A DNA stretch of 64,000 bases from Acidobacteriota bacterium (GTDB taxonomy: Bacteria; Acidobacteriota; Terriglobia; Versatilivoradales; Versatilivoraceae). The stretch lies in the NCBI GenBank assembly GCA_028875575.1, contig JAPPDF010000055.1, forward strand, positions 1-64,000. Direction: 5' to 3'. Made by a program: the position numbers and the translations under genes. The notes below the pieces were generated by a model, which did not search any database, had not been told where the DNA came from, and worked only from the letters and a program-made list of their open reading frames with translations. Shown one piece after another: positions 50,912 to 60,293 of this stretch; within the stretch, counting starts at the first letter, position 1; every line of letters begins with the position of its first letter.

Positions 50912-51093
50912 TCTTTTTGTCTGGTGGTTTGGGAAGTTACTCCTTAAACTCTCGACACGGTCCGGGCCGGTTGTGCATCCGGCATCGCGAGCTTTTTGGA
51001 GCGGCAACCGGACGGCTGGGAAATTGTATCCGGAAGCAGGCTGCCGGTGGCGGGAGACGGTTCATTCAACACAATAAGGAGGTCCCATTGGTC

Positions 51094-52197
51094 ATGAGAC
51101 ACGAATCCAATGTAGCAAAAAACAGGCCCATGGAGCGCCGGGAATTTCTGCGGGCGGCAGGGAAAATCGCAGCCGTCACCGCCATGACCTCGGAGGCCTT
51201 TGGCCGAAATTTCGGTCCTGAGGCGGAGCCGGTACGTTATCCGGAGCCGGACGTGGTGGCTCTCGACAAGCGCTTCAGGTACAAGCTGGGCAATTCACCC
51301 ATTCTGCGCCTGCACCGCGGGACCCTGTGGGCCGAAGGGCCGGCCTGGAACGGCGTCGGCCGCTACCTGCTATGGAGCGACATTCCCAACAACGAGCAGC
51401 TTCGCTGGTTGGAGGAAGACGGCCACGTGGCCCGTCGGTTTCGCTTCCCCTCGGGGAACTCCAACGGGAACACCTTTGATTTTCAGGGCCGGCAGATCGC
51501 CTGCGAGCACGGCAACCGCAGGGTGGTGCGCTACGAGTTCAACGGAGGAATCACGGTACTGGCCGACTCCCATGGAGGCAAGTCGCTCAACGCTCCCAAC
51601 GATGCCGTGGTCCATCCCGAAGACGGGGCCGTCTGGTTTACCGATCCCGGATACGGCAGCCTCATGAACTACGAGGGGAACCGGGCCGACACGGGATCCC
51701 TACAGCCTTACCAGAAGGAGGCGATCTACCGGGTCGACCCGCAGCAGGGCACACTGGAAAAGGTGGCGGACGACATCTACAAGCCCAACGGGCTCTGCTT
51801 TTCTCCCGATTACAAGAAACTCTACGTGGCCGACACCGGGGCCTCGCACTATCCGGACGCACCCAAGAACATCAAGGTCTGGGACGTGGTGGATCAGAGA
51901 TATCTGCGAAACGGGCGAGAGTTCGCTTCCATGGAGCTTGAAGGCAAGACCGGTTTCGCCGACGGCATCCGGGCCGATACCGACGGCAACGTCTGGGCCA
52001 GCGCCGGTTGGGTGGGGGACGGTTACGACGGGGTGCACATCTTCGCCCCTGACGGCGACCGCATCGGCTTGATCCGGCTGCCGGAGATCTGTTCCAACGT
52101 CTGCTTCGGGGGAACCAAGCGCAACCGGCTGTTCATGACAGGGAGTCAGTCCCTCTACGCCGTCTACGTGGAGACCCAGGGAGCGCACCTGACCTGA
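51094..52197 (+). CDS. Exported SMP-30/gluconolactonase-like protein
   Basis: A 367-residue protein from the ATG at 51094 (GGAGG about 11 bp upstream). The signal has the twin-arginine pattern M-E-R-R-E-F-L-R-A-A-G-K-I-A-A-V, so Tat export is likely. A six-bladed propeller follows: L-W-A-E-G-P-A-W, L-N-A-P-N-D-A-V-V-H, W-F-T-D-P-G-Y-G and K-P-N-G-L-C-F-S-P-D are the metal-ligand loops (Glu, Asn, Asp) of the SMP-30/gluconolactonase/Drp35 family. Substrate is likely a lactone; not provable from sequence. Confidence 0.88.
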   Translation: MRHESNVAKNRPMERREFLRAAGKIAAVTAMTSEAFGRNFGPEAEPVRYPEPDVVALDKRFRYKLGNSPILRLHRGTLWAEGPAWNGVGRYLLWSDIPNNEQLRWLEEDGHVARRFRFPSGNSNGNTFDFQGRQIACEHGNRRVVRYEFNGGITVLADSHGGKSLNAPNDAVVHPEDGAVWFTDPGYGSLMNYEGNRADTGSLQPYQKEAIYRVDPQQGTLEKVADDIYKPNGLCFSPDYKKLYVADTGASHYPDAPKNIKVWDVVDQRYLRNGREFASMELEGKTGFADGIRADTDGNVWASAGWVGDGYDGVHIFAPDGDRIGLIRLPEICSNVCFGGTKRNRLFMTGSQSLYAVYVETQGAHLT

Positions 52198-52870: not shown

Positions 52871-54361
52871 ATGGTTAGATTCGGTCCATTGATCGGGTGT
52901 CTTTTTGTGGCCGCGGGAGGCGGATCGGCCCGAGCCCTCGATTTTGTGCAGCAGATCGCGCCCGGTGTCCACTTGGCCGGCTTCGCCGACCGCTACGGTT
53001 CCGCCAACTGCGGTTGGATCGAGTTGGAGGATCGCACGGTGCTGATCGATCTGCCGCATGGGATCGGAGTGGAAGCGTTCCTGGAGGCGGTTTCCCGAAC
53101 TGCCTCCAAGCCAATCCGCTCGTTGTTGCTGACCAGCAAACCGAATCCTCAAGACGAGAGGCTGCAAGCGCTCAAGGCGCGCGGCGTTGGAGTGGTCGAG
53201 GTTTCCGAGGCTCGGAGAACAATCTCGTTGGGCAAGGGGCCGCGGCTCATCGAAGCGATCCCCTGCGACGACGGCCGGAAAACCCCGGCGGTAGCCTTCT
53301 TCCTGCCGCGAGAGCGGATCCTGTTTGCGGGCCGGATGGTCATCCACGGTCCTCGGGCCGATCTGTCGGGCCGGGACACCCTGGCCTGGATGGCTACGCT
53401 TCGAAAACTGAAGCAGCTTGGGGCCAAGCGGGTGGTTCCGGGCTACGGCAGCTGGGAGGGCGGAGATCTACTGGGGCGCCAGATGGGCTATCTGGCCGAG
53501 TTGCGCCGCCAGGTGGCTTATGGGATCTGCCTGGGCCTTCCGTTGGAAGAGATCCGCAAGGGGATCCTGCTGCCTGCTTCCTACTTTCCCTGGGTGCCAT
53601 ACGGAGAGCCGGCCGCCGAAGACATCGATCACCTGTTCCGGGAACAGACGGTCCCCGTGGCTCCCTTCGGACGGAAGGGTCCCCCCGGAAAAGGCGAGGG
53701 TCCTCAGGCCCTGGTCCTGATCGGCGACCGGTTTCATGAGCCGGAGCACATCCAGGAGGGGTTGAAACCGGTCTTCGAGGCGACCGGGGTGACCCCCCAC
53801 TTTGCCGTCGACTTCCGGGCGCTGTCAGCCCAAAACCTGGCTCGGGTCCAGCTGCTGGTGATCTTGAAGGACGGCATGCTGTGGCCGGAGGGGTATGACC
53901 GTCCCTACCGCCAGTGGATGACCATGGAGCAGCAGAAAGCGGTGGTGGAATTCGTGGAGGCCGGAGGGGGATTTCTGAACCTGCACAACTCCATGGGACT
54001 CTATCCCGAGGGCCCCTACCTCGACCTGGTGGGAGGGCGTTATCAGGGTCATGGGCCGCTGGAGAGATTTGGCGTGGAGGTGGTGGATGCGGAACACCCG
54101 GTTACGCGGGGTGTGAGGGACTTTTTCGTAGCCGACGAGCAGCACACGCCCTCATACGAATCGCAAAAGGTGGGTTTGCTGCTGAAGAATCGCTCCGATC
54201 AGGGCAAGGTGGCCGCAGCCGGCTGGGCCTACCAAACCGGCCAGGGGCGCCTCTGCCACCTGGCCAACGGCCATACCCGGGAATCCCTGGATCATCCCAT
54301 GTTCCAGCGCCTGATGCGGAATGCCGTCAAGTGGTGTCTGGCCAGGCCGGATCCTCGTTAG
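52871..54361 (+). CDS. Fusion of a metal-less metallo-beta-lactamase fold and a ThuA domain, exported
   Basis: A 496-residue protein with a signal peptide (1-23). Residues about 26-250 follow the metallo-beta-lactamase fold, but each metal motif is lost: the H-x-H-x-D-H site is S-K-P-N-P-Q (89-94), the G-D ligand is A-G-R (153-155), and the G-H-G loop is P-G-Y-G (190-193). A ThuA/trehalose-utilisation-type domain follows (about 265-490): L-V-L-I-G-D-R-F-H-E, N-L-H-N-S-M-G, L-V-G-G-R-Y-Q-G-H and E-H-P-V-T-R-G-V. It could bind a ligand rather than hydrolyse it. Same direction and near the SMP-30-like gene. Confidence 0.82.
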   Translation: MVRFGPLIGCLFVAAGGGSARALDFVQQIAPGVHLAGFADRYGSANCGWIELEDRTVLIDLPHGIGVEAFLEAVSRTASKPIRSLLLTSKPNPQDERLQALKARGVGVVEVSEARRTISLGKGPRLIEAIPCDDGRKTPAVAFFLPRERILFAGRMVIHGPRADLSGRDTLAWMATLRKLKQLGAKRVVPGYGSWEGGDLLGRQMGYLAELRRQVAYGICLGLPLEEIRKGILLPASYFPWVPYGEPAAEDIDHLFREQTVPVAPFGRKGPPGKGEGPQALVLIGDRFHEPEHIQEGLKPVFEATGVTPHFAVDFRALSAQNLARVQLLVILKDGMLWPEGYDRPYRQWMTMEQQKAVVEFVEAGGGFLNLHNSMGLYPEGPYLDLVGGRYQGHGPLERFGVEVVDAEHPVTRGVRDFFVADEQHTPSYESQKVGLLLKNRSDQGKVAAAGWAYQTGQGRLCHLANGHTRESLDHPMFQRLMRNAVKWCLARPDPR

Positions 54362-57144: not shown

Positions 57145-58419
57145 ATGCCCAACGGGAACTGCTACACCGACGACTGGAAACGGACCACCCCCGACTATGC
57201 CGTCTATCTGCAGAAGGCTCCGGGGGAAAGGGACGAGTATTCCGACCACATTCACGTCTTTTACACGCCTGGGGGCGATCTCATGTGCATGTGGACCCAG
57301 GGCTCCCATGAGAGTTCCCCCGACCTCAGAGTGGTTTGCTCGCGCAGCCGGGATGGTGGAAAGACCTGGTCCCCGACTCTTGCCATTGACGAGTCCAAGT
57401 ACAAGAACATGGTTCCTTCGCTGGGATTTCCCCTGATCAGCCGCTCGGGAAGAATGTACTGCCTTTACAACCAGCACCTGGGATACGGCGACGGAGGTCT
57501 CTATTCCTCGCCCCTGCGGGTCAAGTACTCGGATGACGATGGCCACACCTGGGTCGCCAGCGGCGTGGACATCCCTTGGCGGCGGACCCGTTTCGACCAT
57601 CCCGATCCCAAAGTCCACCCCACGGGTATCGTCTGGCAGCAGCCCATTCGGGATGCCAAGGATCGCATGCTCGTGGGATTCACCCGGTGGAGCAGCCCCA
57701 TGGCCTATCCCCGGCCCATCGGGGGCAATCGCAACCACGGCGACAGCGGCATCGAGTTCATGCGCTTCGAGAATGTGGATGAGGGCCCCCATCCCAGGGA
57801 TCTGAAAATCACCTGGCTGCCGGACGAGGCCGGGACCGTTCGAGTTTCACCCAACATCGAACCCGAGCACTCCCGCGGCTACAGCCTGGCCCAGGAGCCG
57901 GGTCTGGTGCTTCTGCCGGACGGGCGATTGTTCACCACCATGAGGACAGTGACCGGCTATATCTGGTACACCGTTTCCGATGACCACGGCCACAGTTGGC
58001 GCCCCACCCAACCCATGCGCTTTCGAGACAACGGCGCCAAGGTCGAGCATCCGAAGTCGCCCGAGCCCCTCTACCGCCTGGCAGACGGCCGTTACCTTTT
58101 CTTCTTCCACAATCACTCCGGCTACCGGGACGGGGCCACCGGTCCCTGGGACATGGACGCTCGCAGGCCCGTCTACATTACGGTGGGAGAATTTCGCCCC
58201 CGGGCGGAACAGCCTCTGTGGTTCAGCGAGCCCAAGTTTCTCTTCGACACGCAGAAGGTGACCGCTGGAACGACCCGGCTCTGGTGGCTGGCCATGTACG
58301 CCAGCCTGACGGAGAGGGACGGCCGCCGAGTCTTCTGGTACGCCGACCGCAAACAGTTTGTCCTGGGAAAAAACATCACCGACGAGATGCTGGCCGACAT
58401 GAGAGCCCCGGAGGCCTGA
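57145..58419 (+). CDS. Sialidase-like six-bladed propeller protein
   Basis: A 424-residue protein with three Asp-boxes, S-R-D-G-G-K-T-W (68-75), S-D-D-D-G-H-T-W (129-136) and S-D-D-H-G-H-S-W (278-285), which define the BNR/sialidase superfamily. No signal peptide is seen at this start, so it may be cytoplasmic, or an earlier start was missed. The catalytic Arg triad and Tyr/Glu of true sialidases were not identified, so it may act on other sugar esters or bind glycans. The next gene starts 5 bp after its stop. Confidence 0.78.
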   Translation: MPNGNCYTDDWKRTTPDYAVYLQKAPGERDEYSDHIHVFYTPGGDLMCMWTQGSHESSPDLRVVCSRSRDGGKTWSPTLAIDESKYKNMVPSLGFPLISRSGRMYCLYNQHLGYGDGGLYSSPLRVKYSDDDGHTWVASGVDIPWRRTRFDHPDPKVHPTGIVWQQPIRDAKDRMLVGFTRWSSPMAYPRPIGGNRNHGDSGIEFMRFENVDEGPHPRDLKITWLPDEAGTVRVSPNIEPEHSRGYSLAQEPGLVLLPDGRLFTTMRTVTGYIWYTVSDDHGHSWRPTQPMRFRDNGAKVEHPKSPEPLYRLADGRYLFFFHNHSGYRDGATGPWDMDARRPVYITVGEFRPRAEQPLWFSEPKFLFDTQKVTAGTTRLWWLAMYASLTERDGRRVFWYADRKQFVLGKNITDEMLADMRAPEA

Positions 58420-58424
58420 GGTTC

Positions 58425-60293
58425 ATGAACATGAAGAAGATACGGATGAGATATCAGAAACCGTTCGGGTGGCTGGCAGTCCTCTTCCTTTCAGTGGCCA
58501 TCTTCTGGATGGGCTGTTCGGTGGCGCCTCCTCCCGGAGAGCAATCCGCTTCCGGTATTTCCGACGCGGATTCAGAGGCCAGCGCCATCTATCTGACCGA
58601 CCTGGAGAAGTGCCGGCCGGCTTCCGCCCTGGCCAGTGAATGGAAACATGGCACTTGGCGGTTGCTCTCCTACGCCACCGATTCCTTCAGTGGCAACCTG
58701 CTGGTGGCCGCCGAGGACAACCGGCCACCTGAAATCACCTATCCGCTGCAGCGGGAAGGGTGGCACCGGATCTACATCGGAATCTACCGCGAACCGTTCA
58801 CCGGCCCCAGACGGGTTCGGGTCCGCCTGAGCGACGACCAGGCCTTCGGCACCCTGACGGGGCTCGAGGGAGCCAAGGACCATCAGGAGCATTTCATCGA
58901 TGATATCTTCTGGAAGGAAGCCGACCTCACTGGCAGGGACATCGTCTTCAAACAGATTACCGAGCCCATGGCGGTGCACGCCTGGGTCGCCTACATCAAG
59001 CTGGTGCCCCTCACCCAGAAGCAGGTGCGCTCCATCCGGACTGACCGGCGTCGCAAGGACACCAAGAGACTGTTCATCCATAACGACGCCGGAGTGATCA
59101 ACCGCAGCGGAACCGAGCAGGAAATCCGGGATCAACTGGAACCGTTGCGGCATTCCGACGTGGCCCGGGTCTACTGGGAGTTCGGCACCGGCGACCGCGC
59201 CAAGCGTTTCTCCAAGATCGCCCGCGACCACTCGCTGGATTTGACCCAGGCGGCAGGGGGCCGTCCCTTCTTTACCAGCCCCCACGGCCGCTGGTGGGCC
59301 GAGAGCTGGAAGGCCTACCACCGGAACGGGGTGGACCCCTTTCTGGTGGCTGCCGAGTACGCCCGCCAGGTGGGAATAGAGTTCCATGCCTCCTACCGTC
59401 CCGGGGGCTTCATTTACCCGGACAACTATGGTCCGACCCTTCCGGGCGTCAGCTTTTATGAACAGCACCCGGAATTGGTCTGTGTGAATCGCGAGGGCAA
59501 GCCCATGCCCCGCGTCTCCTATGCCTTCCCCGAGACGCGGCGCTATGTGTTGTCGCTCTTTCGTGAAGTGGCCACGGAAAATCCAATCGACGGAGTGGCG
59601 GTTCTCTACAATCGCCGCCCACCGCTGGTGGCCTACGAGGCGCCGGTGGTTGACGGGTTTCAGAAGGAATACGGCCTGGACCCGCGCCAGCTTCCGGAGA
59701 ATGATCCTCGCCTCATGCGCTACCGCTCACGGTTCCTGACCCAGTTCATGAGAGAACTGCGGGCCGAGCTGGATCAGGTGGCTCTGGAACTGAAGCGGGA
59801 AAAGCCCTTTGAGATCACGACCGTGGTTTCCAATGGCGAAGAAAACCTGTTTTTCGGGATGGACCTGGACACCTGGGTGAAGGAGGGTCTGGTGGATGTG
59901 ATCGTCCCCTATTCCTCGGTCGAGCGGATAGGAGCCTATGGAAACAAGGTTGGCCCAAATACATGGGACGGAGAACCCAGCTGGGAGGACCCAGAGGATG
60001 TGGAGTGGTTTGTCTCTCTGGTCAAGGGCACCCGAACCCGGGTGGCCCTGAACATGATGCCGCGGTTCCTGACGAAGGAGGCTCAATACCGCAAGGCACA
60101 CCAGCTCTACGAGGCCGGCGTGGAGAACCTCTTCTTCTGGGACGGGACCCACAGAGTGCGCAATGTTCTGCGGCTGGGACACCGGGAAGAGGTGTCTGAC
60201 TGGATGGCTTCGGGCCAGCCTCCCTTCCGACCCACCAACGTAAGGGTTTGGGAGCTGGGGGGATGGGACCTGCACACGGAAACCCCCGGGTAG
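58425..60293 (+). CDS. Lipoprotein with GHL10-type glycosidase-like domain
   Basis: A 622-residue protein from the ATG at 58425 (ATG at 58431 is possible). Signal with lipobox W-M-G-C near residue 29, so it is probably lipid-anchored. Residues about 60-180 are a beta-rich region (F-S-G-N-L-L-V-A-A-E-D-N-R), then a TIM-barrel-like part with V-A-V-L-Y-N-R-R-P-P, D-P-R-Q-L-P-E-N-D, F-E-I-T-T-V-V-S-N-G-E-E-N and L-V-D-V-I-V-P-Y, typical of GHL10/DUF4015 proteins. Substrate unknown. Follows the sialidase-like gene in an operon. Confidence 0.75.
   Translation: MNMKKIRMRYQKPFGWLAVLFLSVAIFWMGCSVAPPPGEQSASGISDADSEASAIYLTDLEKCRPASALASEWKHGTWRLLSYATDSFSGNLLVAAEDNRPPEITYPLQREGWHRIYIGIYREPFTGPRRVRVRLSDDQAFGTLTGLEGAKDHQEHFIDDIFWKEADLTGRDIVFKQITEPMAVHAWVAYIKLVPLTQKQVRSIRTDRRRKDTKRLFIHNDAGVINRSGTEQEIRDQLEPLRHSDVARVYWEFGTGDRAKRFSKIARDHSLDLTQAAGGRPFFTSPHGRWWAESWKAYHRNGVDPFLVAAEYARQVGIEFHASYRPGGFIYPDNYGPTLPGVSFYEQHPELVCVNREGKPMPRVSYAFPETRRYVLSLFREVATENPIDGVAVLYNRRPPLVAYEAPVVDGFQKEYGLDPRQLPENDPRLMRYRSRFLTQFMRELRAELDQVALELKREKPFEITTVVSNGEENLFFGMDLDTWVKEGLVDVIVPYSSVERIGAYGNKVGPNTWDGEPSWEDPEDVEWFVSLVKGTRTRVALNMMPRFLTKEAQYRKAHQLYEAGVENLFFWDGTHRVRNVLRLGHREEVSDWMASGQPPFRPTNVRVWELGGWDLHTETPG

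Follow-up and report, generated by a model that had tools for sequence, protein, structure and literature searches.

A predicted exported fusion of a metallo-beta-lactamase-like domain lacking its metal ligands with a ThuA domain in Acidobacteriota

We analysed a stretch of 64,000 nucleotides (the window; assembly GCA_028875575.1, contig JAPPDF010000055.1) from a sponge-type acidobacterium and found a gene whose product, likely exported, joins a domain homologous to metallo-beta-lactamases (MBLs), with all its metal-ligand motifs replaced, to a complete ThuA domain (Table 1). The same metal-less pairing is present in about 30 acidobacterial genomes, and is therefore a real, conserved fusion and not a product of decay or sequencing error. 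The host genus (Acidobacteriota) includes Candidatus Versatilivorator vitaminiformans of the class Terriglobia in the named genome collection. The architecture is apparently undescribed, as the initial annotation had supposed: no description of an MBL-ThuA fusion was found in the literature searched, with most subscription journals outside its reach. It is most aptly classed as a new domain architecture, namely a family of pseudo-MBL/ThuA fusions in Acidobacteriota.

Table 1. Features of the fusion gene and of one neighbouring gene (window positions; residues are those of the fusion protein)
Feature	Residues	Position	Strand	Basis
Fusion gene, 496 aa: signal-like N-terminus, pseudo-MBL, ThuA	1-496	52871..54361	+	ORF list (exactly these bounds) and translation; homologous fusions
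Likely Sec signal peptide	1-22	52871..52936	+	Hydrophobic N-terminus; cleavage predicted after SARA, before LDF
Pseudo-MBL domain with C-terminal helical extension of intact relatives	24-266	52940..53668	+	PDB profile matches; hhalign
S-K-P-N-P-Q for H-x-H-x-D-H (His116, His118, Asp120, His121)	89-94	53135..53152	+	Alignment with intact relatives
A-G-R for (T/A)-G-D (Asp221 position)	153-155	53327..53335	+	Alignment with intact relatives
P-G-Y-G for P-G-H-G (His263 position)	190-193	53438..53449	+	Alignment with intact relatives
Segment before linker with most fused-family-specific conserved residues	203-266	53477..53668	+	Conservation comparison
Complete ThuA domain (PF06283)	281-489	53711..54337	+	Pfam; invariant residues
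SMP-30/gluconolactonase-like gene		50917..52197	+	Pfam SGL, E = 1e-44

Homology of the N-terminal domain and its lost metal site

The initial annotation described an exported fusion, which agrees with the open reading frame, with a hydrophobic N-terminus in 14/14 aligned fusion members despite their differing sequences, and with an A-x-A motif that precedes Leu23 in the window protein; on the last two features we predict that the protein is likely exported. Export as a lipoprotein through LIGC (residues 7-10) is unlikely because the Cys sits too near the N-terminus to belong to a lipobox, and members outside the genus lack the motif. The signal-like N-terminus FGPLIGCLFVAAGGGSARALDF (window 52871-52936) is nearly identical in protein sequence genus-wide while synonymous divergence in this region is high (dS about 0.4-1.2, from few sites), a constraint unusually strong for a signal peptide.

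By profile comparison, the N-terminal domain is homologous to the MBL superfamily, as initially proposed. With the window protein alone, phmmer matched class B1 MBLs of the SPM-1/IMP/CcrA type in the PDB over residues 117-204 (E = 1e-6). A profile of 15 homologues matched 6xfr (E = 4.5e-12, model positions 6-191), 8d2z (E = 4.9e-12, model positions 20-170), and VIM-type enzymes (from about 1e-9), and an hhalign comparison with nine aligned intact hydrolases of the MBL type, taken from related genomes, gave 99.9% probability (E = 7.3e-31, 239 columns). Two results would fit a domain that is no MBL at all and whose local motifs resemble one by chance: the Pfam Lactamase_B match (residues 141-191, E = 9e-4) is below its cut-off, and AlphaFold2, with shallow alignments made of just 8 close homologues, yielded low-confidence models (pLDDT 38 for the full protein, 37 for the MBL domain). 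This reading is highly improbable, however, given the profile matches, which span the domain with both solved MBLs and intact relatives, the near-constant distance from the Asp221 position to the His263 position (about 37 residues), and the C-terminal helical extension that the fused domain and the intact relatives have in common in the alignment.

MBL ligands occupy seven positions (His116, His118, Asp120, His121, His196, Asp221, and His263), and the motif replacements named at the outset, which together remove all ligand motifs, are present as named. The window protein has S/P/P/Q at the first four positions, no His196 equivalent, Arg for Asp221, and Tyr for His263; its TSKPNPQ, AGR, and PGYG stand against THHHGDH, AHTRGD, GD, and PGHG in intact relatives, and no His is found in the window protein at the AHTRGD motif position of that alignment. 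The loss is conserved across homologues, including the other genus members compared. By the metal-ligand criterion of active MBL-fold hydrolases, at most 2/7 positions are kept in any of 31 fused domains, whereas the nearest stand-alone relatives have full ligand sets (7/7). The matches that persist are His116 in a contig-end fragment (G011), His116 together with Asp120 in four genomes of family f33, Asp221 in G787 and G882, and a few further single ligands, all in gapped, uncertain columns. Conservation of the loss in 31 domains rules out a sequencing error and, together with the dN/dS values given below, recent decay.

A different active site could in principle have replaced the zinc site, giving the domain a non-canonical catalytic or metal center. 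The domain is under purifying selection and has conserved polar residues specific to the family (R162, R203, R213, and H254), both in keeping with such changed chemistry, but the old site has no conserved His/Asp/Cys cluster, and members vary in what occupies the ligand positions: SKPNPQ, SEPDPE, ARAGQD, APDAKD, SYREGD, or HIWEDS in the first motif, mostly Pro at the Asp221 position, and mostly Phe, Tyr, or Arg at the His263 position. We consequently hold changed chemistry to be improbable. The stretch from the first-motif Thr to the Asp221 position measures 24-67 residues in most fusions and 87 and 114 in some lineages, compared with 97-146 in the stand-alone set. Because the replacements differ by lineage and the surroundings of the site are shortened, the aligned sequences indicate that the zinc site is erased in several ways without being rebuilt around one new residue set. 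From the ligand loss we infer that the N-terminal domain is metal-free.

The closest known counterparts are the stand-alone MBL hydrolases that these bacteria export (HHHGDH / AHTRGD / GDxxVNGP / PGHG type), for which the nearest NCBIfam models are SoxH_rel_PQQ_2 (TIGR04559) and SoxH_rel_PQQ_1. The fused domain resembles them in whole-domain homology, a CNN/NCG motif, VNGP after the Asp221 position, the C-terminal helical extension, and a signal-like N-terminus, and departs from them in being fused, in keeping at most 2/7 ligands instead of 7/7, and in being usually shortened. Against TIGR04558 and TIGR04559 (quinoprotein relay zinc metallohydrolase) the window protein scores about 23 bits, far under the cut-offs of 300 and 280, and the intact relatives, at 95-111 bits against TIGR04559, are also below cut-off. 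The N-terminal domain would be a former zinc hydrolase that is related to these exported enzymes and has lost metal binding.

The ThuA domain and its sugar-related neighbors

ThuA is an abundant, poorly understood domain, for which a GATase1-like fold is expected, and we know of no biochemical activity in the present group. The pairing with ThuA proposed in the initial annotation is borne out by a Pfam match over profile positions 3-209 of 209 (E = 3e-26, 93.4 bits against a cut-off of 33.4), and 14/14 aligned fusion members have a ThuA match. H372, H394, D422, E423, W452, R460, and H468 are all present in the window protein and are 100% invariant in 55 ThuA domains (20 fused, 18 near, and 17 far), so that by sequence the window protein belongs fully to the ThuA family. 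Because all family-invariant residues are kept, ThuA appears to be the catalytic part, and the protein taken as a whole probably works as an enzyme that carries a dead partner domain. The term pseudo-enzyme therefore suits the MBL half, which has lost its ligands, but probably not the whole; the initial suggestion of a sugar-binding or scaffolding protein is not established, the ThuA invariants suggesting instead an enzyme with a dead partner.

The neighboring genes vary, but sugar enzymes recur near the fusion. A gluconolactonase-like gene is close to it in the window, and neighbor clustering placed one near the fusion in other genus members and in G209 (SGL, E = 4e-49). A Gfo/Idh/MocA oxidoreductase adjoins the fusion in G394, where it resembles glycoside 3-dehydrogenase BT_2158 (E = 1.8e-33, below cut-off), and another directly adjoins it in G292. 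A galactonate dehydratase above its NCBIfam cut-off adjoins it in G128, and an alcohol-dehydrogenase-type gene lies upstream in f33. No conserved synteny was found around the fusion across genera; its surroundings change from one genus to another, so the sugar link is a recurring theme rather than an operon. Evidence for keto-sugar activity is indirect and concerns thuAB, genes that have been tied to the formation of 3-keto-disaccharides (Ampomah et al. 2013, as cited in PMC4765114). Because sugar-enzyme neighbors recur and this published link exists, catabolism of oxidised sugars in the periplasm is our best guess for the role. The C-terminal ThuA would act there, probably on oxidised (3-keto) sugars or on sugar acids/lactones.

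The ThuA encoded in the rhizobial thuEFGKAB operons (3-keto derivatives of trehalose/maltitol) and the structures 1t0b and 4jqs are, like the window ThuA, of the PF06283 type by sequence, though distant from it. Rhizobial ThuA and the ThuA-like structures are, as far as is known, single-domain. Nearer are the stand-alone exported ThuA proteins of Acidobacteriota (L041, L042, L043, L086-L089, and others), with 46-52% identity where compared, the same invariant residues, signal-like N-termini, and, in two genera, neighbors of the enolase superfamily (sugar-acid dehydratase type). Unlike the fusion they have no MBL domain; they fall outside the fusion clade and often share a genome with the fusion. 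In these two genera (L041, 6481-7287; L042, 3875-5158) the stand-alone ThuA adjoins a related gene, by eye of the mandelate racemase/galactonate dehydratase type with a Tat-like N-terminus. Further along the window, a sialidase-like BNR_2 gene (57145-58419) is followed by a GHL10-like glycoside hydrolase (57996-60293); as listed, the two ORFs overlap, and translation of the second probably begins only after the first has ended.

Distribution and origin of the fusion

A search for the same pairing in other genomes, as the initial annotation had advised, recovered fusions in 32 Acidobacteriota genomes of four families, plus one contig-end fragment; the sensitive search covered Acidobacteriota. 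In the genus of the window the fusion is present in 7/7 genomes, one with its halves on separate contig ends and another with the first 198 residues missing at a contig end, where the ligand positions are not readable. Elsewhere it is present in 18/237 genomes of family f5, in 3/18 of f12, and, outside the class, in 4/18 genomes of the order to which f33 belongs. Close homologues with intact ligands would have spoken for a sequence error or recent decay, and no fusion with a full ligand set was found among the sampled Acidobacteriota genomes. A pattern scan across genomes, with patterns that reach close relatives only, returned genus members only, and no relative was found in viral contigs.

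In the MBL tree a single branch (support 100/100) separates the dead domains from the rest, and in the ThuA tree the fused domains form one clade (support 95/99); both trees are unrooted and have long branches. Because each domain forms one fusion clade, a single fusion is the simplest account; because the trees are unrooted and contain long branches, a single origin is likely rather than proven. The join to ThuA would probably date to one event in an early lineage of Acidobacteriota. Every fused copy seen has lost the zinc site, and the surrounding stretch is shortened in most; the dead domain might also have been ligand-less already when it was fused. Genomes that carry the fusion often encode a stand-alone ThuA sister as well (G043, G394, G420, G444, G663, G684, and G809). 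Since these bacteria also have intact stand-alone MBLs, the conserved fusion offers a clean natural comparison, which could test both ThuA function and what the metal-less MBL domain is kept for.

Selection on the dead domain and its possible role

Within the genus, pairwise dN/dS is 0.13-0.28 in the MBL core and 0.11-0.30 in ThuA; the former-site stretch (residues 84-140) is the loosest (0.19-0.71). With dN/dS values of 0.1-0.3, the dead MBL domain is under purifying selection. Ligand loss and deletions, and the faster divergence of the MBL part between families (38-48%, against 66-71% for the more conserved ThuA), might suggest a decaying, roleless remnant carried on a working ThuA. We consider such a remnant unlikely in view of the core dN/dS, the absence of stops, its retention in 32 genomes of four families, and near-invariant residues that include D60, G154, G160, P190, and W195.

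A comparison of 26 fused with 12 intact MBL domains identified residues conserved only in the fused family. Most lie in residues 203-266 (R203, R213, Q214, Y217, A236, P243, Y244, H254, T260, and P262), a segment that adjoins the ThuA linker and is present in intact relatives too; others (P62, G64, F152, R162, and W195) are beside the former ligand motifs. Because the fused-family residues cluster mostly in 203-265, near the linker, we favor a structural or contact role, and their conservation suggests that 203-265 may serve as an interface. The pseudo-MBL would then be kept as a scaffold, a dimer contact, or a lid over the ThuA site. Our best explanation, to which we give about even credence, is that ThuA is a working enzyme on oxidised sugars and the pseudo-MBL a metal-free module that packs against or orients it. 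Homology, ligand loss, one fusion clade, purifying selection, and the intact ThuA signature are its sequence basis; the metal-free state, the periplasmic site, the sugar substrate, and the scaffold role are the parts we infer.

Its main rival is that the pseudo-MBL binds a ligand, the emptied groove holding a sugar or glycan uncut and delivering it to ThuA. The conserved residues beside the former ligand motifs and the sugar-enzyme neighbors accord with this, but the loops of the former site are the most variable, under the loosest selection, and shortened in most members, which would be odd for a conserved pocket; we regard ligand binding as possible but clearly the weaker candidate. With somewhat less confidence still, an emptied MBL hydrolase may now serve a ThuA enzyme as its dedicated module for holding or gating substrate. 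If so, the family would represent a new class of metal-free, carbohydrate-related bacterial MBL module and provide a handle on ThuA function.

To our knowledge, MBL-fold pseudo-enzymes have been little described in bacteria. CPSF100 and INTS9 are MBL-fold proteins described as catalytically inactive and kept beside an active partner (PMC4819959). They differ from the fusion in that they belong to eukaryotic RNA processing, their active partner is another MBL protein, and no ThuA is involved. Two stand-alone MBL-like proteins, L105 (in G022) and L106 (in G014), have HxHxDH replaced by GPQADE and SAMPDL, respectively, and keep GD and P(G/A)HG; they constitute a further group of partly dead MBL proteins, distinct from the fusions, within the same class.
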